NCBI GenBank assembly: GCA_009380025.1
Contig: WHSP01000025.1
Coordinates: 1-39,068, forward strand
From: Gemmatimonas sp.
Lineage (GTDB): Bacteria; Gemmatimonadota; Gemmatimonadetes; Longimicrobiales; Longimicrobiaceae
DNA length: 39,068 bases
Reading direction: 5' to 3'
The translations under genes and the position numbers were made by a program. Positions 20,382 to 36,793 of this stretch are shown one piece after another (the stretch's first letter is position 1; every line of letters begins with the position of its first letter). The notes under the pieces are model-generated. The model ran no database searches. It saw only the letters and a list, made by a program, of their open reading frames with translations, and was not told where the DNA came from.

Positions 20382-20408
20382 ACGCAGCCCGTCTTCACGG
20401 CCGCTCGA

Positions 20409-21518: not shown

Positions 21519-22444
21519 TCGCCCTCGCCGTTCGCGACGACGGTGGCGAGGATAGCCTTCTGTACGTGGAGTCGGTTCTCGGCCTGATCGAAGATCCGCG
21601 ACCGAGGACCTTCGAGGACCGCTTCGGTGACTTCTTCCCCGCGATGTGCCGGTAGGCAATGCAGAAAGATCGCCCCGCCGGCAGCGGCCTTCATCAGTGC
21701 GTCGTCGACCTGGAAGCGGCCGAAGGCGCGAGCTCGCTGCCCATGCTCCTCCTCCTGTCCCATCGACGCCCAGACGTCAGTGTTCACGACGCTGGCACCT
21801 CGCACCGCTTCGTACGGGTCATCGGTGACACGGACAGACGCAGACCCCCGGGCCCGTTCCAGGATCTCAGCATCCGGGCCGTATCCCTCGGGGCACGCCA
21901 GCCGCAGCTCGAACCCAAAGCGGAAGGAGGCGTTGAGCCAGGAGTTGGCGACGTTGTTTCCGTCCCCGATCCACGCGACGGCGAGCGACGATAGGTCGTC
22001 GTCGAAATTCTCGCGGACGGTCATCAGGTCCGCCATCACCTGGCAGGGATGAAGGAGATCAGTGAGGCCGTTGATGACCGGAATCGTCGAAAAGTGGGCG
22101 AGCTCCGCGACGTCGCTGTGGGCGAACGTCCGGATCATCAGGGCGTCAACGTAGCGGGAAAGGACGCGAGCGGTATCTCGGATCGGCTCGCCGCGACCGA
22201 GCTGAATATCCCGCGCAGACAGGAAGATCGGATGCCCACCGAGTTGAACGGCGCCCACTTCGAACGACACCCGCGTCCGGGTCGAGCTCTTGGTGAAGAT
22301 CATCCCGAGAGTCCGGCCCGCGAACGGCATCTCGCGGTATTCACCGCGCTTCATCCGCCGGGCGAGGTCGAGGACTGCCTCGAGCTCGTCTCGAGAGAAG
22401 TCCGGAAGGGCGAGGAAATCGCGCTTTTGGCGCTGTCCGGGCAT
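21515..22444 (-). CDS. argF: Ornithine carbamoyltransferase
   Basis: This is a 309-residue protein of the aspartate/ornithine carbamoyltransferase family. The carbamoyl-phosphate loop is STRTR (54-58), followed by the HPCQ motif and GDGNNVANSW. Near the end, FLHCLPAHRGEEV is the ornithine-specific HCLP loop. It makes citrulline in arginine synthesis. N-acetylornithine carbamoyltransferases have a different HCLP context, so the normal OTC is more likely. The ATG at 22444 gives the usual N-terminus; a longer frame extends to 22540 but is not conserved-looking. An extended -10-like TG-C-TATCTT sits on the minus strand at about 22494-22502. No other arginine gene is adjacent. Confidence 0.93.
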   Translation of the reverse strand: MPGQRQKRDFLALPDFSRDELEAVLDLARRMKRGEYREMPFAGRTLGMIFTKSSTRTRVSFEVGAVQLGGHPIFLSARDIQLGRGEPIRDTARVLSRYVDALMIRTFAHSDVAELAHFSTIPVINGLTDLLHPCQVMADLMTVRENFDDDLSSLAVAWIGDGNNVANSWLNASFRFGFELRLACPEGYGPDAEILERARGSASVRVTDDPYEAVRGASVVNTDVWASMGQEEEHGQRARAFGRFQVDDALMKAAAGGAIFLHCLPAHRGEEVTEAVLEGPRSRIFDQAENRLHVQKAILATVVANGEGE

Positions 22445-22670
22445 CGGAACTCGGAAGATGTGAACTGGTACAAGTTCTTTCGTGTCGCGGGCTAAGATAG
22501 CACGGCCGAGATTCGGCGACCACCCGACTCCCGGGGGCATCCCAGGAGATCACAGCCGCGAGCTCCTTCGGGTCCGCGAGCTGGGGACACGGGCGGGCGG
22601 TTGCTGGGAAGATCATAATGGGGAAGCCGCCCAGATCTCGCCGGCTGATATATTTGGCAAGGGTGCGCTC

Positions 22671-23195
22671 ATGCTCCGCCTCTTCACCTTCCTCACGGTC
22701 GTCCTGCTTGGCTGCGCCCCGCGCGGTGAGCCCTCCGACTCGTTGAGTCCGGGAACACGGGCCGCTGGGCGCGAAGGCAGGGAAAACATACTCGTCGGCG
22801 TCGTTCGGATCGTGGGTTCGGCGCCGGTCAATCTGCAGGTCGTCGTTCAGCCGGAGGGAGAGCGGACCGTCCGGCTGCTGGGGCCCCTGGTCCCCGAGCT
22901 GGAGAATCTGGCCGGGGTGAGGGTAGCCGTCGAAGGGGACATCACCGAATCGCCGGACCCCATCGCCGACCGTCAGCTCGAGGCGACCAGGTACGAGATC
23001 GTCGAGGTGGACGGGAGCCCGGTCGTGATGGGAGAGATCATATCGGTTTCGGACGGTAACGCGCGCCTCCGCACGGCGGATGGCGAGGAGGTCAATCTCA
23101 GTGGTGTACCTGAGGCGTTTCGCGTGGGGCAGAAAGTCTGGATCCAGGGTCCGCGAAGCGTCGCGGTGCAGGCATATGGAATGATTCGACAATGA
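22671..23195 (+). CDS. Small lipoprotein of unknown function
   Basis: This is a 174-residue protein with a lipoprotein signal (LTVVLLGC, lipidation at C15). The mature part is beta-rich: two similar stretches, NILVGVVRIVG... and VVMGEIISVSDG..., may each form a small barrel like those in OB-fold lipoproteins. I do not recognise a named family. The ATG at 22671 has AAGGG at a suitable distance; the frame is open further upstream but without signs of coding. Its stop overlaps the next lipoprotein gene as ATGA, so the two are made together and may form a complex in the envelope. Confidence 0.75.
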   Translation: MLRLFTFLTVVLLGCAPRGEPSDSLSPGTRAAGREGRENILVGVVRIVGSAPVNLQVVVQPEGERTVRLLGPLVPELENLAGVRVAVEGDITESPDPIADRQLEATRYEIVEVDGSPVVMGEIISVSDGNARLRTADGEEVNLSGVPEAFRVGQKVWIQGPRSVAVQAYGMIRQ

Positions 23196-25189
23196 GAGCG
23201 TGGCGAAGGGGATTGGTTGCCCCGATTTGTGGTGCCCTGGCTTCGACGGTGCTCCTCGCGTGTAGCGACGGAACCAGTCCCGCCGCGACCGGAGTTTCGG
23301 TCCGCATTCGGCTTGGGCTGGCGGAGTTCGACGAGCAAACGATCGCGATCGGTGAGAGCTTGCAGCTCAGTGCTGAAGTTCTGAACGAAACGGGCGATCC
23401 GATCGACGGGCAGAACGTCGAGTGGTCGAGCGACCGAACGGACGTGGCGACCGTCAGTGGGACGGGCCGCGTGAACGCGGTAGGGCTCGGGACGGCGCAG
23501 ATCACGGCGCGTCACGCCGCGGGAGAGGAAATCGCAATCGTCAACGTCGCACAAAGCTTCCTGGCGACGGATCTGCCCGATTGTGGGGCCGCGGACGCCT
23601 TGACGTTGGGCGTCGGCGAGGCGCTGGTGGTCGCAGGTCCCGACGCGCTGCCGATCTGTCTGGGAGGGGGCGCGGACGGCGACGCGGAGTACGCCATGGC
23701 CGCCGTCAACCTCGGGTCGACGGCCGCGTCGATACTGCAGGTCCGCATCGACGGGGTGGGTGTCGTGCAATCGGCCGCGTCGACGAACCGGGTCAGCACG
23801 ATGCTGCTCTCGGATCGTCCGACGACGAACGAGCGCTTTCATAACCGAATCCGTGGCGAGATTCCGGCCAGCCTCGAGCACCGACTGAACACTTTCCCCG
23901 AAGCGGAGGCGCTCGGCGGACCGAGCTATCAGATCGGCGTCGACGAAGTACTATCGTTCAACGTCAACGCCGCCCCGGGCGACGGGTGTGCCGCGCCGGA
24001 CCTGCGAGGGGGCCGGGTCCGGTACGTCGGCGAGCATGCCGTGGCCGTCGCCGATACGATGAACCCGGCCGGTGGCTTCACCGACGCGGACTACAAGGCC
24101 CTCGTCGACTTCTTCGACGATGACGTCTGGCCGCTCGTGACGGAGAACTTCGGAGAGCCGTCGGACATCGATGGAACGCAGAAGGTCTACATCTTCTTCA
24201 CGCGTGCGGTCAACGAGCTCGGGGAGAACCAGCCGAGGGGGTCGAGCTACGTGGGCGGTTTCTTCTTCAATCGTGACCTCTTCCCGACGAGCTCCTGCGA
24301 GGGAAGCAACGTCGCGGAGATGTTCTATCTTCTCGTACCGGATCCGACCGGCGAGACGGGAGGCCGGGCCTTCTCACCCGAGTTCGTCTACCGCAGCAAT
24401 CTGAACGTGCTGGTTCACGAGTTCCAGCACCTCGTGAACGACTCGAGGCGCCTGCACGTGAACCACGTGCTGGAGTGGGAAGAAGGATGGCTGGGCGAAG
24501 GGCTCAGCCACATCGCCGAGGAGCTCATGTTCTTCCGTAAGTCGGACGGGCTCGGGCCCGCGGAGAACATCGGGCCCGTGGCGTTGGCAGAGAACCAGCG
24601 CGCAAGCGACGCGTTCCGAATCTATCAGCTCGACAATCTGGAGCGCCTGAAGAGGTTCCTGCAGGAGCCGGCTGGCCACAGCGTCATCGGCGGAGCGAAT
24701 CTCCTGGAAACCCGAGGGGCCTCCCGGTCCTTCCTGCGGTACTCGGCCGACCAGCAACCCGGAGAGGACACTGCTCTCTGGCAAGCACTCGTCCGGGACA
24801 CCCGGCATGCAGGGCTCGCGAACCTCGAAGCGGCGCTCGGCATGGAGCCCGCCGATCTCATCCGGGACTGGGCGGCCGCACTGTACGCAGACGATCTGTT
24901 GCCGGGGTCGGAGGCAAGGTTCCAGCTTCCGAGCTGGAACTTCCGGGCAATCTGGCCAGTTGCTGGAACTCTTGGTCTCGGGACCCCGAACCAGAACTAT
25001 CCGCTCATCGTCAGGCCAATCGAGCCAACTCAGGTCTACACCGAGGAACTGAGCGGTGGGGGCGCGCTGTACACTCGGGCCGTCGTGCCAGCCGATCAGG
25101 TTGCCGCCATTCGGTACGTTCTGGGTTCCACCCCACCCTACCTTCCCCTACCGGCGCGCGTCCAGGTCGTCGTGATGAGGGTGGACTGA
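23192..25189 (+). CDS. Lipoprotein with Ig-like domain and an HExxH (M30/hyicolysin-like) metalloprotease domain
   Basis: This 665-residue protein has a lipobox (TVLLAC, C24). A bacterial Ig-like (Big_2) domain at about 35-120 shows AVGLGTAQITARH. Then comes a region of unknown fold and, from about residue 290, a metalloprotease domain with VHEFQHLVN (H409, E410, H413) and a following EGLSH (E436 likely third ligand). This arrangement resembles the M30/hyicolysin peptidases and their many lipoprotein relatives. Paired cysteines in the central part (for example DLPDCGAAD and LPICLGG) fit an exported protein. The start at 23192 overlaps the upstream lipoprotein stop. Substrate is unknown; a role in outer-surface protein degradation is an inference. 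Confidence 0.82.
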   Translation: MRAWRRGLVAPICGALASTVLLACSDGTSPAATGVSVRIRLGLAEFDEQTIAIGESLQLSAEVLNETGDPIDGQNVEWSSDRTDVATVSGTGRVNAVGLGTAQITARHAAGEEIAIVNVAQSFLATDLPDCGAADALTLGVGEALVVAGPDALPICLGGGADGDAEYAMAAVNLGSTAASILQVRIDGVGVVQSAASTNRVSTMLLSDRPTTNERFHNRIRGEIPASLEHRLNTFPEAEALGGPSYQIGVDEVLSFNVNAAPGDGCAAPDLRGGRVRYVGEHAVAVADTMNPAGGFTDADYKALVDFFDDDVWPLVTENFGEPSDIDGTQKVYIFFTRAVNELGENQPRGSSYVGGFFFNRDLFPTSSCEGSNVAEMFYLLVPDPTGETGGRAFSPEFVYRSNLNVLVHEFQHLVNDSRRLHVNHVLEWEEGWLGEGLSHIAEELMFFRKSDGLGPAENIGPVALAENQRASDAFRIYQLDNLERLKRFLQEPAGHSVIGGANLLETRGASRSFLRYSADQQPGEDTALWQALVRDTRHAGLANLEAALGMEPADLIRDWAAALYADDLLPGSEARFQLPSWNFRAIWPVAGTLGLGTPNQNYPLIVRPIEPTQVYTEELSGGGALYTRAVVPADQVAAIRYVLGSTPPYLPLPARVQVVVMRVD

Positions 25190-25201
25190 CGGGTCCGCGG
25201 G

Positions 25202-26398
25202 TCAGCGCACGTACTTCAGCCCGCTGCCCGTGTTGAAGAGCACGACCTCGTCGCCAGGCGAGAGCGCCCCCGAGCGGAGGAGATGCGGAACGACGGCGGC
25301 GGTGGCCGCGCCTTCCGGAGCGCAGAACAGACCGGTAAGGGCACCGACGCGCTTGGTCCAGTCCACCATTTCGTCGTCGGTCACCGTTGCGGCGGCGCCG
25401 CCGGACTCGCGGATCGCACGGAGGATCAGGAAATCCCCGATCGCGCGCGGAACCCGGATTCCGGCGGCGTACGTGTTCGCACCCTCCCACGGCTCCGCGA
25501 ACTCCTGCCCCTTCTCCCAGGCTCGGACGATCGGTGCGCAGCCGACAGCCTGCACGGCGAACATCTTCGGGCGCCGAGAGCCGATCCAGCCGAGCCGTTC
25601 CATCTCATCGAATGCCTTCCACATCCCAACCAGGCCGGTCCCGCCGCCGGTCGGGTAGACGATGGCGTCGGGCAGTCGCCAGCCGAGCTGTTCCGCCACT
25701 TCGTACCCCATCGTCTTCTTTCCCTCGACGCGATACGGCTCCTTCAGCGTCGAAAGGTCGAACCACCCCTCGGCTCGTACGCCTTCGGCGACGCGCGCGC
25801 CACAGTCGGTGATGAGACCATCGAGCAGCTCGAGATCAGCTCCCAGCCCACGTATCTCCTCGAGGATCGGTGGCGGTGTGTCCCGGGGGACGACGACGTG
25901 TGCTTCGATCCCGGCGGCGGCCGCGTAGGCCGCAGCGGCACCTCCGGCATTCCCGGCGGACGGTAGAGCGACGGCCGAAGCGTCGAGCTCGTGCGCGCGA
26001 GAGACCGCCATACAGAGACCCCGCGCCTTGAAGGAAGCGGTGGGGTTCTGACCCTCATCCTTGACCCAGACACGGGAAACGCCGAGAGCGTCCGCGAGAC
26101 GCGGCGTATCCAACAGCGGTGTCCAGCCCTCACCAAGGCGGATCGCGTGTGCTGGATCACGAACCGGAAGGAGCTCGGCGTACCGCCAGAGATCGGCCGA
26201 TCGGTGCACGAGATCCGCCGGAGATAGGACCGATCGGATTCGCTCCAGATCATAGCGGGCGTACAGAGGACGGCTACAACAAGGCGAGACAGTGCTCAGT
26301 TCTTCCGACGGATACCTCGATCCGCAAAGGGTACACTCGAGATGCGTCGCGGCACCCGTCAGAGCGGGTTCGGAGCGGAGGGCTTCGACATCGGACAT
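25202..26398 (-). CDS. thrC: Threonine synthase
   Basis: This 398-residue protein is a fold-type II PLP enzyme. It begins with a small zinc-ribbon-like N-terminus (C22, C25, C40, C41) seen in one class of threonine synthases. LGEGWTPLL is followed by the PLP lysine K124 in NPTASFKARG, the ALPSAGNAGGAAAAYAAAAG loop, and the phosphate-binding PTGGGTGLVGMWKAF. It converts O-phosphohomoserine to threonine. No hom or thrB gene is adjacent. The ATG at 26398 is 3 bp from the stop of the upstream zinc-ribbon gene, so the two are coupled. The closely related cysteate synthase is an alternative that cannot be excluded from sequence alone. It converges with the metalloprotease gene, 12 bp away. Confidence 0.9.
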   Translation of the reverse strand: MSDVEALRSEPALTGAATHLECTLCGSRYPSEELSTVSPCCSRPLYARYDLERIRSVLSPADLVHRSADLWRYAELLPVRDPAHAIRLGEGWTPLLDTPRLADALGVSRVWVKDEGQNPTASFKARGLCMAVSRAHELDASAVALPSAGNAGGAAAAYAAAAGIEAHVVVPRDTPPPILEEIRGLGADLELLDGLITDCGARVAEGVRAEGWFDLSTLKEPYRVEGKKTMGYEVAEQLGWRLPDAIVYPTGGGTGLVGMWKAFDEMERLGWIGSRRPKMFAVQAVGCAPIVRAWEKGQEFAEPWEGANTYAAGIRVPRAIGDFLILRAIRESGGAAATVTDDEMVDWTKRVGALTGLFCAPEGAATAAVVPHLLRSGALSPGDEVVLFNTGSGLKYVR

Positions 26399-26401
26399 GA
26401 G

Positions 26402-27097
26402 TCAGCGGCGGTGCAAGGGTACAGCCACGACCGTTTCGACAGCATCGCTCTCGCAGTCGGGACACCGCTCGTGCGAACCCGGGCTCCATCGACGACAGGC
26501 ATGGCAAAGAATAGTGAGACTTCCTTCGGCCTCGGGGGCGGCGGGCAGGAGGAAAGCCTCGCCGTCGGGCCCGACCAGGCGAACGGACGGACCGGTATAG
26601 AAATGGACCAGAAGGTCACGCACGTCGAGGTCGCCTGCGGTCTGGACCTTGTCTTCCCGAACCACGGCCGTCCGCTTACGGAAGATCGAATGCTCCGCGG
26701 TCCACGTCCGTTCGACACCCGCTTCCTCTTCCAGAGTGAACGTCAAGCCGCGGCTCTCGAGTTCGTACGGCACGGCGAGTCGACGCCGGAGACGGTCCGC
26801 GGCCACGCCGGCTGCCTCCGCTGGGCTCAGCTGCCTTCGATTCGCTTCATGGACTGACTCATCGCAGAACACCGAGGCACGAGCGTGTGACCAGAGTGGC
26901 GTCCTGAGCCGCCCGACATCCGTCTCCACGACACCAGTGAGGTCGTACTCATGACCGATGGGACCAATCTCGACCCACACCGTCTCGACTTCCTCCCGTC
27001 CGTCCAGAAGTCGCTCGAGCTCCCCAACGAACCAGGCCCGCCGGCCCGCCAGATCGAGCTCGCACCACCGGTCTATGTCGATGTGTCCTTCTTCCAA
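26402..27097 (-). CDS. Unrecognised protein with a C-terminal zinc ribbon
   Basis: This 231-residue protein has no domain I can name. The N-terminal 170 residues are acidic, mixed alpha/beta, with blocks such as EVETVWVEIGPIGHEYDL. The C-terminus has a four-cysteine zinc ribbon, CHAC-(x9)-CPDC. The start is uncertain; TTG 27097 is the upstream limit of the frame and a GAAGAAGGA run follows it. A promoter with TTGACC and CATCTT lies 40-70 bp upstream. It is transcribed with threonine synthase, and may bind nucleic acid or act as a cofactor for that gene's product; neither is supported by more than location. Confidence 0.7.
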   Translation of the reverse strand: MEEGHIDIDRWCELDLAGRRAWFVGELERLLDGREEVETVWVEIGPIGHEYDLTGVVETDVGRLRTPLWSHARASVFCDESVHEANRRQLSPAEAAGVAADRLRRRLAVPYELESRGLTFTLEEEAGVERTWTAEHSIFRKRTAVVREDKVQTAGDLDVRDLLVHFYTGPSVRLVGPDGEAFLLPAAPEAEGSLTILCHACRRWSPGSHERCPDCESDAVETVVAVPLHRR

Positions 27098-27135
27098 GGT
27101 TCTTGCTTCACGAGTGAATGGGGAGCGACGCGAAC

Positions 27136-27165
27136 AAGATGTCGGTCCTCCCGTGAGCAGGTCAA
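27136..27165 (-). promoter_or_regulatory. Sigma-70-type promoter of the zinc-ribbon/threonine synthase operon
   Basis: On the minus strand TTGACC (27165-27160) is followed after 18 bp by CATCTT (27141-27136). An inverted repeat, CAAACC (27163-27168) and GGTTTG (27176-27181), overlaps the upstream edge of the -35 box and could be an operator. Confidence 0.5.
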
Positions 27166-27212
27166 ACCCGGTGGAGGTTTGTCACATCTGACGTGGAAGG
27201 CGCCGTCGAGTA

Positions 27213-28544
27213 CTACTGGCCGAGGCGGGTCTCGAGACGACGTACGGCGTCGAGGGCAGCGCTGACCGCGCCTTCGGCGGACGGGCCATAGAGATAGTCG
27301 CCCGCAAGGACGAGGGGGAGCGATCCCTCGAGATTGGACGCGCGGAAGGCACCCAGGTGGCCGAGGTAGCCCGGATACATGATCGGTGTGCCGATGGGCC
27401 AGCGGTACACGCGTGCCCGCACCACGTGCTGCTGGACCCTGGGCAATGCACGAATGACCTCGGGCAGCATGCGATCGTGCACCTGACGAGAATCCAGGTC
27501 GATCAGCGAAGGGACCGCCTCGGGCGTCGGGAGAACGAGCAGCAGGCCTCTACCGGATGGTACAAGATCGACCCCTTTGTTCTCCTGTACGGCCACGGCT
27601 GCAACAACGTTCGTCTGTCCCTCGGGGAAGGAGAGGCCGAAGAAGCGCGGACCGACAGGTCGGTCCAACAGGAGGGCGAGCGAAAGAGTTGGCCGGTAGC
27701 GTACCGCGCCCAACCAGTCGCGGAGGAGGATCGGGAGACCTTCGACGATGTCCAGCACAACAGGGGCGGGCACCGCGGCGACAACGGCATCGAACGCCTT
27801 CTCTCCTGCCTCACTGGCCACTACGGCGCCCTCGGCCGTCAGCCGCACGGAGGTGACCGGGAGCCCCGTCCGAACCTCCCCGCCCGCCGCCTCGATCCGT
27901 TCCGCGAGCCTTGCCGGCACTTCGCCCACACCGCCTCGGATTCCGTACAACTTCACGTCCATCCCGTCCCGCGCCAGGATGTGATAGAAGCCGGCACTCG
28001 TCTCCCCTGGTGACGCGCCGTAGTACGCCCCCAGCTGTGGGTAGACGAGCGCCGCGACGAACGCAGTGTCGATTTCCCGGACTCCCCAATCCGCGATCGA
28101 CTCGGCATCGAGACCCCCGGCCGCCGCGTCCTCCGGGGAATGCAGATCGAGAGCTCGCGAGTGTCGCGAAAGGAACGGAAGGTAGGTCGAGCCGAGCCTG
28201 AGCTTGGTGCCAAGCGGCAGGCCACCCGACGAGATCATGCTCGCAATCGATCCGTAGACTACCTCGTGCGTACGCCCACCCCTCCACAGGGCATCCCGCC
28301 CCGGTACCTGGACGAGACGATCCTGGAGGCCAATCTCCTCGACGAGCGCCAGAAATCGGGTGTACATCGAACCGAAGAGCTGCGCCCCTGCGTCGACATG
28401 CGTGTCGCCCAGTCGGTCGGTGAGCATGCGACCCCCCACCCGTTCCTCACTCTCATAGACCACAACGCTGTGTCCACGGGCCTGGAGCGCGTGGGCAACA
28501 GTCAACCCGGAAAGGCCGGATCCTACGATCGCAATCGAGGTCAA
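27213..28544 (-). CDS. FAD-dependent amine oxidase / protoporphyrinogen oxidase-like protein
   Basis: This 443-residue protein opens with the dinucleotide-binding motif IAIVGSGLSGLTVAHALQARG and VVVYESEERVGGRM, which is the start of the monoamine oxidase/protoporphyrinogen oxidase superfamily. The C-terminus has the second FAD motif (LVLAGDYLYGPSAEGAVSAA). The middle holds a substrate domain with GGVGEVPARLAERIEAAGG. HemG/HemY protoporphyrinogen oxidases share this plan, but no other heme gene is near, so the substrate is left open. The frame opens with TTG at 28544 and no good ribosome-binding site is visible. It lies 115 bp upstream of the zinc-ribbon gene on the same strand. Confidence 0.85.
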   Translation of the reverse strand: MTSIAIVGSGLSGLTVAHALQARGHSVVVYESEERVGGRMLTDRLGDTHVDAGAQLFGSMYTRFLALVEEIGLQDRLVQVPGRDALWRGGRTHEVVYGSIASMISSGGLPLGTKLRLGSTYLPFLSRHSRALDLHSPEDAAAGGLDAESIADWGVREIDTAFVAALVYPQLGAYYGASPGETSAGFYHILARDGMDVKLYGIRGGVGEVPARLAERIEAAGGEVRTGLPVTSVRLTAEGAVVASEAGEKAFDAVVAAVPAPVVLDIVEGLPILLRDWLGAVRYRPTLSLALLLDRPVGPRFFGLSFPEGQTNVVAAVAVQENKGVDLVPSGRGLLLVLPTPEAVPSLIDLDSRQVHDRMLPEVIRALPRVQQHVVRARVYRWPIGTPIMYPGYLGHLGAFRASNLEGSLPLVLAGDYLYGPSAEGAVSAALDAVRRLETRLGQ

Positions 28545-28673
28545 ACGTCAGCGTTCGGTTGATCTTTCAGCTCCGCGCGAGGTCGCGTCGGGGTCGCGGA
28601 TTGGCCTGGAAGAGCCCGGCCACCGGCGCTGCGAATCAGTAGCAGACATCCTCGCCACCGCCCAAAGAGAAAC

Positions 28674-28707
28674 GCGGGCGACCACCCTCGCCAGGGTGGT
28701 CGCCCGC
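28674..28707 (-). terminator. Strong intrinsic terminator of the small gene at 28.8 kb
   Basis: A perfect 15-bp stem (28674-28688 with 28693-28707) closes on a 4-nt loop. Read on the minus strand, the stem is followed by GTTTCTCTTT. This is the clearest Rho-independent terminator in the window and ends a minus-strand transcript about 40 bp after the stop at 28746. Confidence 0.85.
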
Positions 28708-28745
28708 GCTCAACCAGCTACTGCGAAAATCTCTACGCCCGGACT

Positions 28746-28931
28746 TCAGGCAGCCGGCAAAACCGCGCGCTTCCAGCGCCCATATGGGAGCGACGGCTGG
28801 GGACGAACCTTGCCCCCCCAAACGAAGGCCACCGCTCTCGGCTTCGCCTGCTCGGGCCTTCCGCCCTGTACCACAATGCCGACCGCATCTTCCGATACGG
28901 ACGCCTCTTTCTTTGTTTTGATCTCGCTCAT
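28746..28931 (-). CDS. Unrecognised 61-residue protein
   Basis: The ATG at 28931 is preceded by GGATGG. The protein starts with a charged part (MSEIKTKKEASVSED), then a short hydrophobic strand (AVGIVVQGG), and ends in a basic, proline- and tryptophan-rich tail (WGGKVRPQPSLPYGRWKRA). It has no cysteine. The strong terminator just downstream and a quiet 310-bp region upstream with repeated half-sites argue that this is a real gene. A run of seven G residues in the frame (near 28813-28819) is a possible sequencing or slippage point. I do not recognise the family. It could be a peptide precursor, a small regulator or a conserved orphan. Confidence 0.5.
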   Translation of the reverse strand: MSEIKTKKEASVSEDAVGIVVQGGRPEQAKPRAVAFVWGGKVRPQPSLPYGRWKRAVLPAA

Positions 28932-29255
28932 AAAACCATCCAATCATGCAAAGCTTTAGTCACAACGACGTGCGCCGCGGCGTCGAGGAAGGCATGGCGC
29001 ATGCCCCTTTCGCCACAACTCTCAACCCGCGCTGTAGTATTATTTTAGCGCTCCGTAATCCACTCCGTCGCAGAGCGCGCCGTACCCTTTCGGGGACACG
29101 CGACGTGTCGGAAGGACACGACATCGGTGGATTGGGATCTCACGAAGCAGCGAAGTCCGCGAAGGGGAATTCCCCGCGATCAGGATTTCGCGTCGTCGCG
29201 TGACCTTACCGTTCGTCGACGCGGTCCAGTCCGTTGAACACCTGACGAGGGGCGC
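28932..29255. other. Intergenic region upstream of the 61-residue gene
   Basis: It holds an AT-rich island at 29034-29048 (TAATAC and TAAAAT on the minus strand) without a matching -35 box, the three GACACG half-sites at 29095-29120, and a perfect 12-bp palindrome GGGGAATTCCCC at 29164-29175. No gene is supported here. Confidence 0.5.
29095..29120. promoter_or_regulatory. Three alternating GACACG half-sites
   Basis: GACACG (29095-29100), CGTGTC (29104-29109) and GACACG (29115-29120) are spaced by 3 and 5 bp. Any two neighbours form an inverted repeat, so they are either protein-binding half-sites or two mutually exclusive hairpins. They lie about 50 bp upstream of the AT-rich, promoter-like island of the 61-residue gene. 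Confidence 0.4.
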
Positions 29256-29537
29256 TCAGTCCGTGAGGTTGGGCCGGTGCGACTTCTGGCGGCCGCTACT
29301 CCAGGTGCGATAGCCAGGCAGCTTCAGGAGCTTGAAGATCTTGCGGTCGACGGCGTTGGAGAGGAGGAGTTCGGTGAGCTGGTACTGATCGCCCTGTTCC
29401 CGGCGCAGCTCATCGGCGGCTTCGTCAGCGATACGCAGGAGGTCGGCGCGGGAGACACTGTCCTTATAGTCCTCTATCTGATCCTCCACCCATGCCCGGT
29501 AGGCACGTCGCAGGGAAGGAGAGGACTGTCGCGTCAT
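29256..29537 (-). CDS. Small hypothetical protein
   Basis: This 93-residue protein is mostly helical and charged: RRAYRAWVEDQIEDYKDSVSRADLLRIADEAADELRR is one long amphipathic block, followed by QYQLTELLLSNAVDRKIFKLLKLPGYRTW. It has no signal peptide or cysteines. The regular heptad-like pattern and sharp edges look like true coding sequence, and I believe similar short proteins occur in related bacteria, but I cannot name a family. It lies 100 bp downstream of the archaemetzincin gene on the same strand. Confidence 0.7.
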   Translation of the reverse strand: MTRQSSPSLRRAYRAWVEDQIEDYKDSVSRADLLRIADEAADELRREQGDQYQLTELLLSNAVDRKIFKLLKLPGYRTWSSGRQKSHRPNLTD

Positions 29538-29637
29538 GACGACCGTGGTTGGGGAGCGGCGCGAATAGTCGGAATGACTGGAGTCGGAAACTGTCCTGCG
29601 ACATTGGCCATGAAGCTAACTTTCAGTGAGATATGGA

Positions 29638-30186
29638 TCAAGGACCATTCGAGGTCGAGAGGCCGAGCCGGCATGAGGGGCAGAATTCGGATACTTTCTC
29701 ATCGATTTCCAAGACGGAGGTTGAGGGGTGCATCACGCAGTGTGGATGGGGACAGTGTTCCAGGCCGACGAGATGTCCGAGCTCGTGAACGGCTTCTTTG
29801 AGGAGGCGATCGTGGAGGATGTTGGAGTCGTGGATGGGAGACGCAAGTCGGGCGGAGCTGACAACGGCCCAAGCGCCACCGAAGGCGGCTTCGCCGAAGA
29901 CAAAGGAGCGCACGGGAGCGTAGAGATCGTGGCTGGTAACAGCGAGCGTCAGGTGATCGAAGGTGTCCCGATTGGGTCCAGCGCGTTCGATCAGCCGATC
30001 GACGATCGCATTGGAAGGAAGCTGGGAACCGGACAACGGGATATCGGGAGGGAGACGAAGGTCCGGACCGATCGAGACGCGGGTCTGCAGGCTCTCCGCG
30101 ATCGCTGCGGTCAGGAGGCGGACGACATCGGGGTCGGGAGCGGCGCCTCGAACGGAGACGATCTCGATCGGCAGCGGCCAGATCAC
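29638..30186 (-). CDS. amzA: Archaemetzincin family zinc metalloprotease
   Basis: This 182-residue protein has the extended metzincin zinc site HELGHLVGLEHC (H134, H138, H144) followed by C145, C150 and the Met-turn M152, then CPSC (C169, C172). The second zinc is held by the cysteines, the mark of archaemetzincins (family M54). N-terminal IEIVSVRGAAPD fits the family start. Substrates of prokaryotic members are unknown. The GTG start at 30186 overlaps the response regulator stop as GTGA, so it is translated as the third gene of a kinase-regulator-protease cassette. Confidence 0.9.
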   Translation of the reverse strand: MIWPLPIEIVSVRGAAPDPDVVRLLTAAIAESLQTRVSIGPDLRLPPDIPLSGSQLPSNAIVDRLIERAGPNRDTFDHLTLAVTSHDLYAPVRSFVFGEAAFGGAWAVVSSARLASPIHDSNILHDRLLKEAVHELGHLVGLEHCPHPHCVMHPSTSVLEIDEKVSEFCPSCRLGLSTSNGP

Positions 30187-31547
30187 TGCTGAATCCCGTA
30201 TCGAACGAGCTTGCGGTAGAGGGTGGACGGATCGATCCCGAGGACCTGGGCCGCCCGCGTCTTGTTGCCGCCGACCGCATCGAGAACCCAGAGGATGTAA
30301 GCGCGCTCGACGGTCTCGAGGGTCGGGTTTGGCGGTCGCTTCTCGGAGATGAACGATCGGACCGGCCGACTCCTCAGTCGGAGGGGGAGCGCATCCGGCG
30401 CGATCACGGAGTCCTTCGAAAGGACGGCGGCTCGCTCGAGGGCGTTCTCCAGCTCCCGCACATTCCCGGGCCAGTCGTACGACTTGAGCAATTCGCTGGC
30501 CTCCGGGGTGAGACGGGGCACGTCGTCCCCACGGACTGCCGCAAAGCTGGAGAGGAGGTACTCGGCGAGCACCGGAACGTCATCGACCCGGTCGCGGAGC
30601 GGTGGCAGATGAAGGGTGATGACATTGAGCCGGTAGTAGAGGTCGCTTCGGAAAGCACCCCGACGAATCTCCTCCTCCAGATCCCGGTTGGTGGCCGCGA
30701 CGATCCTCGCGTCGACCCGGATCGGTTCGGTGGCGCCCACCGGAACGACTTCCCGCTCCTGCAGGACCCGAAGCAGCTTCACCTGCGTTGCCGGCGTCAT
30801 CTCACCCACTTCATCCAGGAAGAACGTTCCTGACCCCGCGGCAACGAAGAGCCCTTCCTTGTCCCTGATGGCACCCGTGAACGCTCCTTTGAGATGCCCG
30901 AAAAGCTCCGACTCGAGCAGATTCTCCGGAAGGGCTCCGCAGTTGATCGATACGAACGGTCCCCCTGCCCGTTTCGACAGGTTGTGCAGATAGCGAGCGA
31001 GCACCTCCTTTCCCGTTCCCGACTCCCCGGAGATGAGCACCGTCGAGTCCGTCGGAGCGACCGTCTCCGCGAGCCCGAGGATCTCCTTGAAGGCACGGCT
31101 TCTTCCGACGGGTCGTTTGAACTGCCCTGCATCCCACCGGCGTCCTACGGTCCTCGATCCCTGAAGCGGCCGTTTGCCGAGGCGTGACTCGACGGCCCGG
31201 TGACAGACTGTGACGAGCTCGTCGTTCGAAAACGGCTTCTGGATGTAGTGAAAGGCACCTTGGTTGACCGCCTGGATGGCGCTCTGAAGAGATGCCTGCG
31301 CGGTCATGAGGACGACGGGGATCATCGCGCCCTGCTTCCGGATCGCCGAGAGGACCTCGATGCCGCTGATCCCCTGCATCCGGATGTCGCTCAGCACGAC
31401 ATCCGGGGGCGCGTCCGTGATCGCCTCCAGTCCCTGCTGGCCGCTGGACGCTGTGGACACCTCGAATCCCTCGCCCTTCAACAGGATGCGAAGGGTGTCG
31501 AGCGTGGCGACCTCGTCGTCGACGATCAAGATTCTCGGACGACTCAA
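30183..31547 (-). CDS. Sigma-54-dependent response regulator (NtrC/AtoC type)
   Basis: This 454-residue protein has a true receiver domain (1-115) with D10/D11, phosphoacceptor D54 (VVLSDIRM) and the late lysine (IQKPF). The AAA+ domain (about 145-380) has GESGTGKE and the sigma-54 contact loop GAFTGA. The C-terminus is a Fis-type helix-turn-helix (TRAAQVLGIDPSTLYRKLVRYG). I take TTG 31547 as the start, because it overlaps the kinase stop as TTGA and gives the usual short N-terminus before the receiver; a frame open to 31643 adds non-conserved residues. It is the cognate regulator of the kinase encoded just upstream. Confidence 0.95.
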   Translation of the reverse strand: MSRPRILIVDDEVATLDTLRILLKGEGFEVSTASSGQQGLEAITDAPPDVVLSDIRMQGISGIEVLSAIRKQGAMIPVVLMTAQASLQSAIQAVNQGAFHYIQKPFSNDELVTVCHRAVESRLGKRPLQGSRTVGRRWDAGQFKRPVGRSRAFKEILGLAETVAPTDSTVLISGESGTGKEVLARYLHNLSKRAGGPFVSINCGALPENLLESELFGHLKGAFTGAIRDKEGLFVAAGSGTFFLDEVGEMTPATQVKLLRVLQEREVVPVGATEPIRVDARIVAATNRDLEEEIRRGAFRSDLYYRLNVITLHLPPLRDRVDDVPVLAEYLLSSFAAVRGDDVPRLTPEASELLKSYDWPGNVRELENALERAAVLSKDSVIAPDALPLRLRSRPVRSFISEKRPPNPTLETVERAYILWVLDAVGGNKTRAAQVLGIDPSTLYRKLVRYGIQQ

Positions 31548-32734
31548 GGGCCGCCGTCCCGAACGGCGGTGGAAATCGGCTGCCGGACGGATACAGCGTG
31601 CGGGAGCGTCGGAAGATAGACCGAGAACACGGCGCCCGTGCACTCACTGGGGCGGACGTTGTCGACGAAGATCGCCCCGCCGTGGGCCTCCACGGCCCGC
31701 TGAACGAGTGCCAGACCCAGCCCTGTACCCCCACTTCGCCGCGTGAAGAAGGGATCGAAGATCCGATCCCGGATATCATCCTGGACACCGGGCCCGGTGT
31801 CACGAACGGATAGCCGGATCAGCTGGAATGCGCCAAAGGCAGGCGAGAGCAGGTCCGACTTCAGGTCCTCCAGACTCACGTTGACACTGCCGTTGCGACC
31901 GGCCCATTGGGCGGCGTTCAGGACGAGGTTGAAAACCCCGCGATGAAGGACTTCCTCGGCGCCGCGGACATAGACGTCCCTGGGCGGCACGTCGAAGGCG
32001 AGTTCAACCCCGTCACGGCGAGTGTCTGGGTGAGCGCGGACCAGGTTCACGACTTCGCTGACTACGGCACGGAAATCGACCGGGCGTGGGTCGATGACCC
32101 TGACGCGCCCGAAGTCGATAAACTCGCCGAGAAGTCGGCTCAGCCGATCTGATTCCCGGACGATCAGCGCGCCGAGCAGCCGGGTATCCTCGGGTTCGGC
32201 TCGCACCCCGACTATCTGTTCGACGGCGCTTCGGATCGATGTAAGGGGATTCTTGATCTCATGCGCGAGCGACGCTCCCAGCTCTGCAACGGCCTCGAGG
32301 CGCTCCGCACGGCGACGTAGGCCCTCTGCTCTCACCTTCTCGGTAATGTCCTGGAAGATCGCGGCTACCGATGGCGTCAAGGCCCCCTCCCTCGGCTTCA
32401 GTAGAGCAGTGCTCACGCCGAGCACGAAGCCGGACTCTTCAGCGGGAGCGGTCTCGAACCGCCGAATCGGCAGACCTGTCCTTGCTGTGCGTTCGATCAC
32501 GCAGCCCAGGCCCGGCGTGGCTCGATTCAGCTCTCGGAGGATCGGACGATCGAGCCAGTCCGCCGACCGGAGGTCGAGCAGGTCCGAAGCGGCTGGGTTG
32601 AGGTAGGCGAGCCTTCCATCGCTATCGACGATGAGGACACAGGTCCCGATCGTGTCCAGCAGGTCACCAAAATCAAATCGCAGCCGTCGAAGGTCGGCTG
32701 GAGCGTCCCCAGGAATGGTGTCCAGCTCGGTCAT
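31544..32734 (-). CDS. Soluble PAS-domain histidine kinase (NtrB type)
   Basis: This 396-residue protein has no membrane helix. A PAS domain (about 20-130) is followed by the dimerisation domain with the phosphorylated H158 in SLAHEIKNPLTSIR and an ATPase domain with the N-box NLVLNAAQWA, DTGPGV (G1) and GGTGLGLALV (G2). This is a cytosolic sensor of the NtrB/ZraS/AtoS general type; the signal is unknown. The ATG at 32734 opens the PAS domain neatly; the proline-rich extension to 32818 is unlikely. The next gene starts within its stop codon. Confidence 0.94.
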   Translation of the reverse strand: MTELDTIPGDAPADLRRLRFDFGDLLDTIGTCVLIVDSDGRLAYLNPAASDLLDLRSADWLDRPILRELNRATPGLGCVIERTARTGLPIRRFETAPAEESGFVLGVSTALLKPREGALTPSVAAIFQDITEKVRAEGLRRRAERLEAVAELGASLAHEIKNPLTSIRSAVEQIVGVRAEPEDTRLLGALIVRESDRLSRLLGEFIDFGRVRVIDPRPVDFRAVVSEVVNLVRAHPDTRRDGVELAFDVPPRDVYVRGAEEVLHRGVFNLVLNAAQWAGRNGSVNVSLEDLKSDLLSPAFGAFQLIRLSVRDTGPGVQDDIRDRIFDPFFTRRSGGTGLGLALVQRAVEAHGGAIFVDNVRPSECTGAVFSVYLPTLPHAVSVRQPISTAVRDGGP

Positions 32735-32851
32735 GCGGTCAGAGGAGTGAGGGGTCGAGGGGGAGGAGTGGTGGGGTGGAGGTGGGATCGGAACAGGCCA
32801 GCGAGGCCAGGTGATCAAGGAGAACGTCGGTCTGGTCGTGTCATCGTGGAC

Positions 32852-33121
32852 TCAACGGGGATCCTGGCTGCCGGCGGCGTCCGGCGCCCAGCGCCAGCGC
32901 ATGCGGCCGCGCCATCCGCACCGGGCGCACTCCGCCATGAAGGTTCGAGCAAACGCAGGGATCTTCGCGAGGATGGAGAATGTCAGATCAACTTCGCGCG
33001 CCACCGCTCGACAGCTTGGGCACTCCGGGGCAACGGGAAGGTGGCGAAGGTATCGTTCCATCAGCAGCGGCGCGGCGAGCAAAAGCGCCATCAGGGCGGC
33101 GGGGACCAGTTGCTCCGTCAT
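32852..33121 (-). CDS. Small membrane-anchored protein with four cysteines
   Basis: This 89-residue protein begins with one hydrophobic helix (about residues 5-20), then has CPSC and, 30 residues later, CARCGWRGRMRW, a zinc-ribbon-like pair. It would sit in the inner membrane with its ribbon in the cytosol. I do not recognise a family. The ATG at 33121 has no strong ribosome-binding site. It lies 118 bp upstream of the kinase gene on the same strand and could be part of that sensory unit. Confidence 0.55.
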   Translation of the reverse strand: MTEQLVPAALMALLLAAPLLMERYLRHLPVAPECPSCRAVAREVDLTFSILAKIPAFARTFMAECARCGWRGRMRWRWAPDAAGSQDPR

Positions 33122-33241
33122 GGTTCAGCGGCGGCGTACGGTTCGGTGGAGGACGATCGACGGGCCCATGAGGGCGGCGCTGGCCAGTCGTCAGCAGACA
33201 GGTACCCAGCCGTGCACGTTTTGGACCCGGGATCCTTCCTG

Positions 33242-33814
33242 TCAATCCGCCAATTTGGCGTATCGAATCGTCAGGTTTCGAGGCTCCCCGTCCGGCGTGT
33301 AGAAGTCGACGAACTGAATCTTGTACACCTCGTCTCCACGCTTGATGAGGAAGACGTCGTACGTCGGCCAGATCAAGTGCTGTCCAGCGAGGTTGTAGCG
33401 ATACCAGGGATTCGTGTCGAAGACGCCACCATCCCAGGCCCCAGGATCCGTCGGGAGATCCGCCGTACCAACGGACTCGAAATCGGCAAGCGCGGCCTCG
33501 ACGGCCAGCGCCTGGATTTCCTCATCGCCGAGCCCCTGGTTCCGGCAGATACAATAGGCGACCACGTCGCCAGGGCCGGACTCTCCGCCGTTCACCGAGA
33601 CGGTCGTGCCGAGGATACCGAGGTCCCATTCCGAGGACGCGACGGGATCGGCAACATCGATCTGAAAGGAGGACGCGCCGAAGTCGAGGAACACCCAGTC
33701 GCCTGACACGTCCACGGTACCCGAGAGCACGTCTTGCGCGGTGGCAAGCCTCAGCGGAGCTACCGCTGCGGTGATCCCGGCGGCAACGGTCAGATAGTGG
33801 ATGATCTTAGTCAT
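33242..33814 (-). CDS. HmuY-like secreted protein
   Basis: This 190-residue protein has a signal peptide (about residues 1-27, ending in ATAQD) and no lipobox. The mature part shows SSEWDLGILGTTVSVNGGESGPG and, near the end, YDVFLIKRGDEVYKIQFVDFY, the two hallmarks of the HmuY family. HmuY from Porphyromonas binds heme; most environmental homologs are uncharacterised and the two histidine heme ligands are not evident here. The ATG at 33814 follows GAAGGG. Its gene is downstream of an iron(III)-type ABC operon, and an inverted repeat lies 40-65 bp upstream of its start. Confidence 0.78.
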   Translation of the reverse strand: MTKIIHYLTVAAGITAAVAPLRLATAQDVLSGTVDVSGDWVFLDFGASSFQIDVADPVASSEWDLGILGTTVSVNGGESGPGDVVAYCICRNQGLGDEEIQALAVEAALADFESVGTADLPTDPGAWDGGVFDTNPWYRYNLAGQHLIWPTYDVFLIKRGDEVYKIQFVDFYTPDGEPRNLTIRYAKLAD

Positions 33815-33854
33815 ATGAGCCCTTCGTCAGATCTCGAGGCGGTCGGCAAGAGTC

Positions 33855-33877
33855 AGCGTACTGGAGTAATGTACGCT
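33855..33877. promoter_or_regulatory. Inverted repeat upstream of the HmuY-like gene
   Basis: AGCGTAC (33855-33861) and GTACGCT (33871-33877) form a perfect 7-bp inverted repeat with a 9-bp centre, between the HmuY-like gene and the ABC permease gene. It has the size of a repressor operator. It is not a Fur box as I know it. A clear -35/-10 pair is not visible next to it. Confidence 0.45.
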
Positions 33878-33974
33878 ACCACGCTTGGGAAAGTGCCGAG
33901 GCGAATCATGAGTGGTAATCGTGACAAGTCCAGAGAGAGGTCGGCACGGGAGCTGACAAAAACGATGCTCGTGC

Positions 33975-35729
33975 CTACGTACCGGGAGTACCGCTCACCT
34001 TTCCGTATCCCAACATAAAGACGAGCGCCATCAGTGCGATCAGGAATACACCGTAAGCCGCGGCGCCGCCGAAGTCGAACTCTCGGAGTTGCGACAGGAT
34101 GGCGATCGAGATGGGCCGGGTACGCTGCGTATACAAGAGGATCGAGGCGACGAACTCCCCCAGCGCCGTGACGAATGCGAGGAGGGCGCCGGCGGCAAGA
34201 CCAGGAAGGACCAGGGGTAGTGCGACGCGGCGCATCGTCGTCGTCCACGACGCACCGAGCGACGCCGACGCCTCCTCGAGGGCGGGATCGAACTGCCGGA
34301 AGCTCGTGAGCGCGGCGCGCGTCACCAGGGGAATGTTCCGGATGAAATAGGCAAGGGGCAGGATCGCGAACGTGCCGACGAGCAGGAATCGTCCGGCCAG
34401 AGGCTGATCGGCATTGAAGGTCGTTGCAAGGGCCATGGCGAGCACCGTGCCTGGCAGTGCCCACGGCAGGATGACGAGAGCGCCCAGGATCGCCTTGCCA
34501 CGGAACTGTCTGCGAACGAGAAGGTAGGCGGCGAGGAAGGCGAGCACGACGTTCGCCGCGGTCGCTATCGTCGCCATCTGGAACGAGTTGACGATGGGTG
34601 TCAACATCTCTGGCCGAGAGAAGAGATTTACGTAGTTCTCGGCGGAATAGGTCGGTGGGAAGAGCTGCGTCGTCCAGGTTCCTTCCGGAACGAAGGAGAC
34701 CAGAAGGACCGTCGCGTGCGGGAGAAGGAGCAAGATCGTCAGCGACCAGGCGAGGACGCCGAGCAGTGTCGTGGTCCCACGGCCCTGCTTCGCCGCCGCT
34801 CCAGCCCCGACGGCACCTTTGCCCGCACCGGTGTAGATGCGGCGCGCCTCGTAATACTGGAGCATTGCGAGGAAAGCGATCGACACCCCCGCCAAGATCA
34901 CCGTCTCGACCGCTGCGATCGCCAGGTCACCGTTGAGCTTGCTGACGTAGATCTGCGTGCTGAGGACCCGGAATCCACCGCCGAATATGTATGGCGCGCT
35001 GAACGAGCCCATGGACGTCATGAAGACGAGGAGCCCGGCACCGGCGAGTGCGGGCGCTAGCATGGGCAACGTCACGCGCCGCAGGGTGGTGAAACGGGAC
35101 GCACCGAGAGCGGCAGCAGCCTCTGCGTACCCACCGTCGAGCCGAGCCAGGGCAGCACTCGTGAAGAGGTAGAAGTACACGTACATCGTGTACGAGTGGA
35201 CGAGCAGGATCGCCCACGGACCGGTAAGCCGCCACGGTGGACGGTCGAGACCCAGCAGACCCTGGACAGTGCGCGCGACGAAGCCGCTCTCGCCATAGAG
35301 GAACAGGAAGGCGATGACGCCTACGAGGGGCGGGAGGAGCACCGGCAGCGCAACCAACCCCCCGAGGATCGAGCGACCCGGGAACGAGTAGCGGGTGAAC
35401 AGGAACGCGAGGGGCACTCCGATCAGGCCGGAGAACAGCACACTCGCAGCAGAGATCCAGACGCTGTTCCACAGCGCTTCGCGTTCCGACGAGCTCTCGG
35501 CGAACCGTCTGTAGTTCTCGACGGTCCACTCGGCGCCCTCGCGGAGAGAGTCGCCGAGTACGAACAGGTTCGGGTACAGAACGAGCCAGATGAGCAGCAG
35601 GATCACGACGGCGCCGAGGGCACCCGGACGCATGATCGGAGCACCGAGCCTTCGGCGAGAACTGGGCGGCGGGGGACGAGGCACGGGTGGGGGAACCCTC
35701 GATGCGACCGCCTCTGCGACCTCGCTCAA
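33975..35729 (-). CDS. Iron(III)-type ABC transporter permease, two fused halves
   Basis: This 584-residue protein has about 12 membrane helices in two homologous halves joined by a linker near residue 300. Each half has an ATPase-contact (EAA) loop: EAAAALGASRFTTLRRVTLP and EEASASLGASWTTTMRRVALP. This is the FbpB/SfuB/ThiP-like plan. The proline-rich N-terminus is cytosolic. The ATG at 35729 overlaps the ATPase gene stop. It forms the channel of the importer made with the next two genes. Confidence 0.92.
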   Translation of the reverse strand: MSEVAEAVASRVPPPVPRPPPPSSRRRLGAPIMRPGALGAVVILLLIWLVLYPNLFVLGDSLREGAEWTVENYRRFAESSSEREALWNSVWISAASVLFSGLIGVPLAFLFTRYSFPGRSILGGLVALPVLLPPLVGVIAFLFLYGESGFVARTVQGLLGLDRPPWRLTGPWAILLVHSYTMYVYFYLFTSAALARLDGGYAEAAAALGASRFTTLRRVTLPMLAPALAGAGLLVFMTSMGSFSAPYIFGGGFRVLSTQIYVSKLNGDLAIAAVETVILAGVSIAFLAMLQYYEARRIYTGAGKGAVGAGAAAKQGRGTTTLLGVLAWSLTILLLLPHATVLLVSFVPEGTWTTQLFPPTYSAENYVNLFSRPEMLTPIVNSFQMATIATAANVVLAFLAAYLLVRRQFRGKAILGALVILPWALPGTVLAMALATTFNADQPLAGRFLLVGTFAILPLAYFIRNIPLVTRAALTSFRQFDPALEEASASLGASWTTTMRRVALPLVLPGLAAGALLAFVTALGEFVASILLYTQRTRPISIAILSQLREFDFGGAAAYGVFLIALMALVFMLGYGKVSGTPGT

Positions 35730-36793
35730 CTACTCTCCAGGGGGAACGCATGCAACGGCGGGTCTTGTTCGGCCGTGACGAGGACCTCCTGTTCCTCGAG
35801 GCGCCGACCGTGGCCCGGCACGGTCACGAGCAGCTCGTTGCCGCCGGCCATACGAACTCGATAGGCGGTGTTCGCGCCAGCGAAGCGCCGATCGACGACC
35901 TGCCCGGCAAGTCCTACTGCACCGTTGCCCGATTGGGACGGGACGATCCGAAGAGCCTCCGGCCGCACCATCACGCGGACCCGACCCTCCTGGTGAGAGT
36001 GCAAGCGCACCCGCCATTCCGCGCCACCCACTTCGACCATCCCCTCCTCGCCGTCGCGTGTGACGACGCGACCCTCGATGAAATTGGCACGGCCGACGAA
36101 CGTCGCCACGAACGGAGTCGAGGGGGTTCGGTACAGCTCCTCGGGGGTACCGAGCTGCTGGAGCTCGCCGTTTCGCAGCACCGCGATTCGATCGGAGAGG
36201 GCGAAGGCCTCTTCCTGGTCGTGCGTCACAAAGATGGCGGTGATCCCGATGCGCTTGAGGAGAGCACGGAGCTCCTCGCGAGTCCGCTCACGGAGAGCGG
36301 CGTCCAGATTGGAGAGCGGTTCGTCCAGCAGGAGGACGGGCGGTTCGGGAGCGAGCGCACGCGCGAGTGCGACGCGCTGTTGCTGACCTCCGGAGAGCGC
36401 CTGAACTGCGCGCTTCTCGTAGCCCGTGAGATCCACGCGCGCGAGCGCCTCCGGCACCTTCGTGCGGATCTCAGAGGCCCGGACGCCCTTAGCCTTCAAA
36501 CCGAACGCGACGTTTTCGAAAACGTCGAGATGTGGAAAGAGGGCATAGCTCTGAAAGACCATCCCCATTCCGCGGCGTTGGGCTGGGAGGTCCGTGACGT
36601 CGCGTTCGCCGAGAACGATCCGCCCCGACGTCGGGCGTTCGAATCCTGCGATCATCCGGAGGGTGGTCGTTTTCCCGCAACCGCTGGGGCCCAGCAGGCT
36701 CAAGAACTCACCAGGATGGACTTCCAGCGATAGCTCCCTCACAGCGACCGTCGTACCGAAGCGCTTGGAGAGCGCCTCCAGACTCAGCTTCAT
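35726..36793 (-). CDS. ABC transporter ATP-binding protein, iron(III)/polyamine class
   Basis: This 355-residue protein has Walker A GPSGCGKTTT, the Q-loop VFQSYALFPHLDV, the signature LSGGQQQRVALARAL, Walker B VLLLDEPLSNLD, the switch histidine VTHDQEEA, and a C-terminal TOBE domain (about 240-350). The class serves Fe3+, putrescine/spermidine, thiamine or phosphonate imports; the partner binding protein points to iron. The ATG at 36793 overlaps the binding-protein stop as ATGA, and its own stop overlaps the permease start. Confidence 0.95.
   Translation of the reverse strand: MKLSLEALSKRFGTTVAVRELSLEVHPGEFLSLLGPSGCGKTTTLRMIAGFERPTSGRIVLGERDVTDLPAQRRGMGMVFQSYALFPHLDVFENVAFGLKAKGVRASEIRTKVPEALARVDLTGYEKRAVQALSGGQQQRVALARALAPEPPVLLLDEPLSNLDAALRERTREELRALLKRIGITAIFVTHDQEEAFALSDRIAVLRNGELQQLGTPEELYRTPSTPFVATFVGRANFIEGRVVTRDGEEGMVEVGGAEWRVRLHSHQEGRVRVMVRPEALRIVPSQSGNGAVGLAGQVVDRRFAGANTAYRVRMAGGNELLVTVPGHGRRLEEQEVLVTAEQDPPLHAFPLESS

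Follow-up and report, generated by a model that had tools for sequence, protein, structure and literature searches.

A class-wide small-protein gene of Gemmatimonadota with a predicted sigma-54 promoter and a probable role in type IV pilus control

Introduction

The closest described counterpart of the locus analysed here is the PilS-PilR/sigma-54 regulon known from Pseudomonas, Geobacter and Dichelobacter. PilR regulons extend past pilA, and the part of the source drawn on here gives a TGTN11AGA sequence (as printed) together with GTCT elements as hallmarks of PilR sites (PMC6058289). Also relevant is TldD/E, a heterodimeric protease that removes the leader of microcin B17 (PMC5810440). The Gemmatimonadota are widespread and little studied, and a gene kept across a whole class can escape notice through its shortness.

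We analysed a stretch of 39,068 nt from a Gemmatimonas sp. assembly (contig WHSP01000025.1; referred to as the window), in which a sequence-only reading had pointed to a small unrecognised gene with its own terminator on the minus strand. Comparison of the locus with other genomes shows that the frame, a predicted sigma-54 promoter, a distal palindrome and a terminator-like hairpin recur across the class of the window's genome. The features of the locus are collected in Table 1; f1 to f10 denote the groupings of class genomes, or families, used throughout.

Table 1. Positions of the features of the small-protein locus in the window
Feature	Position	Strand	Basis or remark
Small-protein gene, 61 codons, ATG start	28749..28931 (stop codon 28746-28748)	minus	homologues across the class; pN<pS in 9/9 close pairs
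Intrinsic-terminator-like hairpin, 16-bp perfect stem, 4-nt loop, tail TTTCTCTTT	28673..28708	minus	inverted-repeat listing, folding, relatives
Predicted sigma-54 -24/-12 site GGGGCATGCGCCATGCC (GG-N10-GC)	28991..29007	minus	begins 76 nt upstream of the ATG
Proximal element CTAAAATAATACTACAGCGCGGGTTGAG	29021..29048	minus	fixed distance upstream of the -24 site; kind common to pilin promoters
Distal palindrome GTGTC-CTTCC-GACAC, candidate enhancer site	29105..29119	minus	motif counts in relatives
up93, 93 aa, predicted four-helix domain	29256..29537	minus	conserved neighbour
NtrC-family response regulator (RR), PilR-like, predicted activator	30183..31643	minus	
PAS histidine kinase (HK), PilS-like by orthology	31544..32818	minus	no predicted hydrophobic segments
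FAD amine-oxidase-like gene	27213..28544	minus	beyond the terminator; neighbour in f1 and f2 only

Results

Conservation and coding evidence

The predicted product of the 61-codon frame, which an alternative TTG start at 28943 would extend to 65 residues, has the core DAVGIVVQGG...PRAVAFVWGG and ends in -AA. As sole query it found matches in 31 of 60 other related genomes (E <= 1.3e-4). Profile searches covered 295 class genomes: A1, built from 30 members, located the small gene in 118 (E <= 1e-3), and A4, with 66 members, in 136 (E <= 1e-4). Omitted from the underlying alignments were L054 (a weak stray hit), L037 (the same gene as L096) and L053 (a near copy of L052) in the case of A1, and L087, L090, L101 and L103 in the case of A4. 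A scan of genome contigs with a single peptide sequence gave no match; a nine-row family alignment later gave 16 loci, all of them in Gemmatimonadetes, Gemmatimonadota or Longimicrobiales. L071 and L106 are second copies of the small gene (in genomes G088 and G244), both without a sigma-54 site.

The substitution pattern is that of a coding sequence, with pN<pS in 414 of 435 pairs of small genes (median ratio 0.78) and a median ratio of 0.40 among the nine close pairs, all of which have pN<pS. Conservation across genomes and pN<pS together rule out a chance frame, and on this comparative evidence the frame is a real protein-coding gene, previously unrecognised, with its own terminator. On this point the sequence-only reading is borne out, and the small-protein search in relatives that it had proposed returned both a conserved frame (136 of 295 genomes) and a coding substitution pattern. 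The window protein falls into no Pfam and no NCBIfam family; a comparison of 30 members with both libraries gave one weak stray match in each and otherwise none, and the small-protein profiles matched no PDB sequence at E <= 1. A literature search, whose scope left out most subscription journals, returned no title that describes such a protein.

The family consensus reads GIV[IV]...PR..AF[VI][WY]G, the constant part being GIV[IV], followed by a variable stretch with G and PR and then A[FY].[WY]G. Conservation peaks centrally and the C-terminal part varies from family to family: proteins of f1 to f3 mostly have PxPxLP[YF]GRWK appended, and those of f7 mostly carry an acidic tail in place of the tail rich in W, P, R and K. 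That tail, called unusual in the sequence-only reading, is thus a feature of f1 to f3, replaced in most f7 proteins. An -AA C-terminus occurs in 37 of 66 small proteins against 0.9 expected from composition; -AA ends act as degrons in ssrA-like tags. AlphaFold2 modelled the small protein without secondary structure at pLDDT 66; we take the protein to be probably unfolded, a low-confidence model being weak evidence for disorder.

In f6, 20 loci were read following the conserved neighbour. A profile match at E <= 1e-3 was obtained in eight of them and a plausible ninth at 0.011, several of these frames having the form MTSLP...EPxGIIxxAG...RPAKIWAYCWF; the profile search found no small-gene frame in the other 11 and also returned a stray-looking frame at E 0.0031. 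A regular expression applied to the same 20 loci yielded only one candidate.

Terminator hairpin and transcript

The stem of the hairpin behind the small gene is 100% complementary, and the minus-strand sequence that follows it reads TTTCTCTTTGGG. The inverted repeats listed for the window number 18, with arms no further than 60 nt from each other. This hairpin alone among them combines a perfect match, separate arms and a loop no longer than 5 nt; the two other perfect repeats are an overlapping palindrome and one with a 13-nt loop. The perfect stem and 4-nt loop reported earlier are therefore present, with 16 rather than 15 base pairs. The further claim that this is the strongest terminator in the window holds for the stem but not for the tail: in TTTCTCTTT the T-tract is interrupted and only moderately T-rich, and the hairpin was not among the sites that a generic scan for terminators reported in 19500-39068. 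Among relatives, 53 of 66 loci have a hairpin with 11 or more pairs no further than 160 nt from the stop codon, compared with 32 of 198 shuffles and 10 of 62 control stretches taken 700 nt further on.

With the predicted sigma-54 start near 28980, the transcript would be some 310 nt long, in fair agreement with the earlier estimate of about 300 nt. The 321-nt region including the hairpin folds with z = -5.09, an excess that is due to the terminator hairpin, since the transcript body without it has z = -0.65. Rfam at gathering thresholds gave no match in this stretch. The sequence-only reading expected so short a gene to be highly expressed; what the sequence suggests is regulated expression from a sigma-54 promoter.

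Promoter region

The promoter, which is absent from the sequence-only reading, was found from the upstream regions of relatives. In 58 of 65 small-gene upstreams a sigma-54 site is located between 60 and 125 nt ahead of the ATG (L071 and L106, the paralogues without promoter, are omitted from the 65-sequence counts), and these -24/-12 sites have the GG-N10-GC spacing and a TGGCAC...TGC look. The best score reaches at least 11.5 in 56 of the 65, against 13 of 287 control upstreams taken from other genes in the same loci (p = 3e-32). Counting all 67 upstreams, 54 beat their own shuffles at p<0.05, and the mean score is 12.5 on the forward and 9.7 on the reverse strand. At family level, the small gene thus has the GG-N10-GC site predicted for a sigma-54-dependent gene. 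The window's own site scores 10.5 (p = 0.18), which equals the best reverse-strand score; it is weak alone, and its assignment rests on its position within the range of the relatives.

Further upstream, the palindrome TGTC-N5-GACA is present in 34 of 65 small-gene upstreams, compared with 0.27 in shuffles and 1 of 264 controls, and other spacings are rare or absent (N4 0, N6 0, N7 6, N8 5). The 5.02-Mb genome of the window has its longer form GTGTC-N5-GACAC twice, once as the copy in Table 1. In f6 the palindrome was found in one of nine syntenic small-gene copies, two of the nine having no good sigma-54 score. A scan of five genomes for a palindrome and a GG-N10-GC site separated by a gap of 60-90 nt, which excludes the window's own promoter with its gap of about 99 nt, gave 14 rows, mostly unexplained.

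EM motif discovery in the 90 nt that precede the -24 site recovered the distal palindrome and gave p<0.05 in only 2 of 11 pilin promoters, a result that led us to test for an element at fixed position. The proximal element of the window has a leave-one-out score of 3.9, the top among all offsets tried, and the same test succeeds in 33 of 65 small-gene promoters. When trained on the 65 small-gene promoters, the element scores a mean of 3.49 in 11 pilin promoters (above 0.5 in nine), which were hand-picked from 20 pilin-like frames and are few and partly near-copies, against -2.94 +- 1.29 at other offsets of the pilin promoters. The mean is -4.0 in 24 exact matches to TGGCACGN4TTGC, of which L153, L159, L168, L169 and L174 score above 1; many of these comparison sites may be chance matches, because a backwards control was as frequent or nearly so in four of six genomes, with a clear excess of the pattern over this control only in G042 and G173. 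By themselves the pilin promoters showed no significant column information: equally high values arose in 38 of 300 jittered sets. At L153, L168 and L169, putative lipoprotein or secreted-protein genes combine the proximal element with a strong sigma-54-like site, and these genes may belong to the same regulon as the small gene.

Regulator and type IV pilin genes

The gene order in the window is HK, NtrC-type RR, an archaemetzincin-like gene, up93, the small gene, the FAD gene, a gene for a 231-aa protein and threonine synthase. Of 16 genomes tested, 14 have an orthologue of the RR with 60-71% identity, while the paralogues listed next reach at most 48%. With a threshold of E <= 1e-140 the RR was detected in 200 of the 295 class genomes, two of them with two copies. 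In families other than f1 it lies beside a kinase that has 4-7 hydrophobic segments and, at 8 of 13 loci, beside type IV pilins, an arrangement like the PilS/PilR layout. The window HK has no predicted hydrophobic segments, compared with the 4-7 of its orthologues, and no pilin gene was seen beside it; its sensor part may be lost or broken. Physical linkage of the RR to the small gene, within 5 kb, is confined to f1 (10 of 16 loci, and 10 of 71 overall).

Pilin-like frames beside the PilR-like gene reach a sigma-54 score of at least 11.5 in 8 of 20 cases, all at -77 to -95. The N5 palindrome is in none of these 20 upstreams (N6 or N7 in two), for which reason it may bind an activator other than PilR, and control of the small gene by PilR is rated as likely only. 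Across the 295 genomes, small gene and RR are both present in 124, the small gene alone in 12, the RR alone in 76 and neither in 83, counts that ignore shared ancestry; an RR orthologue thus accompanies the small gene in 124 of 136 genomes, and the small gene is undetected in 76 of 200 genomes with the RR. PilB (TIGR02538 over its cut-off) was found in 11 of 12 genomes with the small gene versus 3 of 14 without (p = 0.0005), in a comparison of hand-picked genomes that ignores ancestry and in which 3 of the 14 passes needed summed pieces; at least a weaker PilB-like match is present in 24 of the 26.

Gene neighbourhood

Neighbours were counted within 5 kb at 71 small-gene loci. The conserved neighbour up93 lies upstream of the small gene in 42 of them (f1, f2, f6 and f7) and occurs in 146 of the 295 genomes, with one weak match in f3 among the matches listed. 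Its homologues in f1 and f2 comprise 90-160 residues, the N-terminal helical part, whereas in f7 a TehB-like methyltransferase-like domain is fused to it, giving proteins of 250-290 residues. Over this C-terminal domain, profile A5 has matches to TehB-type structures (E 2e-8 to 6e-8), and the best NCBIfam match of the f7 domain is the daptide methyltransferase model, at 26.6 bits against a cut-off of 175. A PDB fold search with the N-terminal helical domain of the window's up93 gave nothing below E 4.5. This protein looks like an N-terminal remnant of the f7 protein with the TehB-like domain (L073-L086). In five loci from one genus (L043, L044, L048, L050 and L051) up93 ends in ...ACVG, placing a cysteine third from the end. 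LPYGRWK of the small protein (28770-28790) resembles LPxYxxW of up93 (29259-29537, minus strand), and the two are perhaps a common motif for binding.

The FAD gene has homologues at 14 of 33 loci, all in f1 or f2 and in eight cases starting no more than 450 bp from where the small-gene match starts; counted within 5 kb, it is found at 11 of 71 loci, again all f1 or f2. The earlier suggestion of a peptide modified by the FAD amine oxidase was rejected on account of this restricted distribution. A pair of PmbA/TldD-family genes lies near the small gene at 14 of 71 loci, namely five in f1, one in f2, seven in f7 and one in f9 (L024, L032, L034, L036, L038, L039, L078-L080 and L083-L087), always downstream, convergent and on the opposite strand, and it is possible that this pair encodes a protease for the small peptide. 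The pair is missing within 5 kb at 57 of 71 loci including the window, which has no match below E 0.3. Downstream of the small gene in f3 (25 loci) are genes for an ECF-type sigma factor (20), an ABC ATPase (20), an HlyD-type protein (12) and a MacB-type protein (7). Pfam searches with one representative of each of 25 recurring neighbour clusters identified no radical SAM and no YcaO protein, seven representatives being without any match.

Discussion

The reading that we favour, and hold with reasonable though not high confidence on the strength of sequence comparison, is that sigma-54 and PilS/PilR-like control yield an mRNA of about 310 nt, monocistronic in this reading, for an unfolded small protein tied to type IV pili. 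A PilS/PilR-like system, encoded just upstream in the window's family, would drive sigma-54 polymerase, acting from the proximal AAgTC...CTT element, the TGTC-N5-GACA palindrome or both, and the mRNA would be made under conditions that also activate type IV pilin genes. As the promoter type resembles that of type IV pilus genes, the small protein is probably an unstudied part of pilus control in Gemmatimonadota. Less certainly, it would be soluble and unfolded and would serve as an adaptor peptide, its GIVI...AF.WG core binding a partner in the pilus or in signalling, and the frequent -AA end would be a ClpXP-type degron making it short-lived. A bolder proposal, which we offer tentatively and think doubtful, is that a class-wide family of unfolded, rapidly degraded proteins constitutes a dedicated PilSR-sigma-54 output with its own TGTC-N5-GACA enhancer; its members would be peptides that regulate surface sensing or the assembly of type IV pili or, after cutting by a TldD/E-type protease, peptide signals linked to them.

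Alternatively, the small protein might be controlled by sigma-54 while the palindrome is bound by another NtrC-family regulator and the link to pili is indirect. The genomes encode many such regulators, 12 of the 136 genomes with the small gene have no PilR-like orthologue, and the palindrome is missing upstream of all 20 pilin-like frames beside the PilR-like gene; against this, pilin promoters have the proximal element in common with the small gene, the small gene is linked to the HK-RR pair in f1, and it co-occurs with both the RR and PilB, so that we regard a different activator as unlikely. A small RNA driven by sigma-54 and ending at the terminator, with the frame incidental, would account for the short unit and the strong hairpin, and sigma-54-dependent small RNAs such as Qrr and GlmY exist elsewhere. 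This explanation was rejected, and we give it almost no credence: the class-wide conservation is at the protein level with pN<pS, and neither excess RNA structure beyond the terminator (z = -0.65) nor an Rfam match at gathering thresholds was found in this stretch.

We judge it improbable, more so than a different activator, that the gene encodes the precursor of a processed or modified, RiPP-like peptide, cut for instance by TldD/PmbA, perhaps methylated by the domain of the neighbour, and exported. The predicted lack of fold would suit such a precursor, as would the PmbA/TldD pair just downstream at 14 of 71 loci (f1, f2, f7 and f9), the methyltransferase-like domain of the upstream neighbour in f7 with its match to the daptide methyltransferase model (26.6 of 175 bits), and the ABC ATPase (20 of 25), HlyD-type (12) and MacB-type (7) genes downstream in f3. 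However, the TldD-type genes are encoded on the other strand, and 57 of 71 loci, the window among them, have no such pair within 5 kb; radical SAM and YcaO proteins were not found in the 25 cluster representatives (seven without a match), the FAD gene is restricted to f1 and f2, and conservation is central in the protein while its C-terminal part depends on the family.

The small protein is kept over the whole class, and its gene has a precise sigma-54 promoter; with its apparent link to type IV pili it offers a direct handle on the regulation of surface behaviour in these bacteria, and the promoter grammar of palindrome, proximal element and -24/-12 site makes the regulon searchable.

Compared with RiPP precursors cut by TldD/E, such as that of microcin B17, the small protein is similarly short and predicted to be unfolded, and has a PmbA/TldD pair near 14 of 71 loci; it differs in having no leader/core layout and, in the window, no such pair nearby. 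With TehB-like SAM methyltransferases the locus has in common the C-terminal domain of the upstream neighbour detected by profile A5, although the window's up93 has the N-terminal helical domain only. The resemblance to the PilS-PilR/sigma-54 regulons of Pseudomonas, Geobacter and Dichelobacter lies in the membrane HK and NtrC-type RR that relatives encode beside pilin genes and in the -24/-12 promoters. The target here differs in being a short gene whose predicted control region carries a TGTC-N5-GACA palindrome, with a spacing unlike the TGTN11AGA given in the part of the PilR source drawn on.
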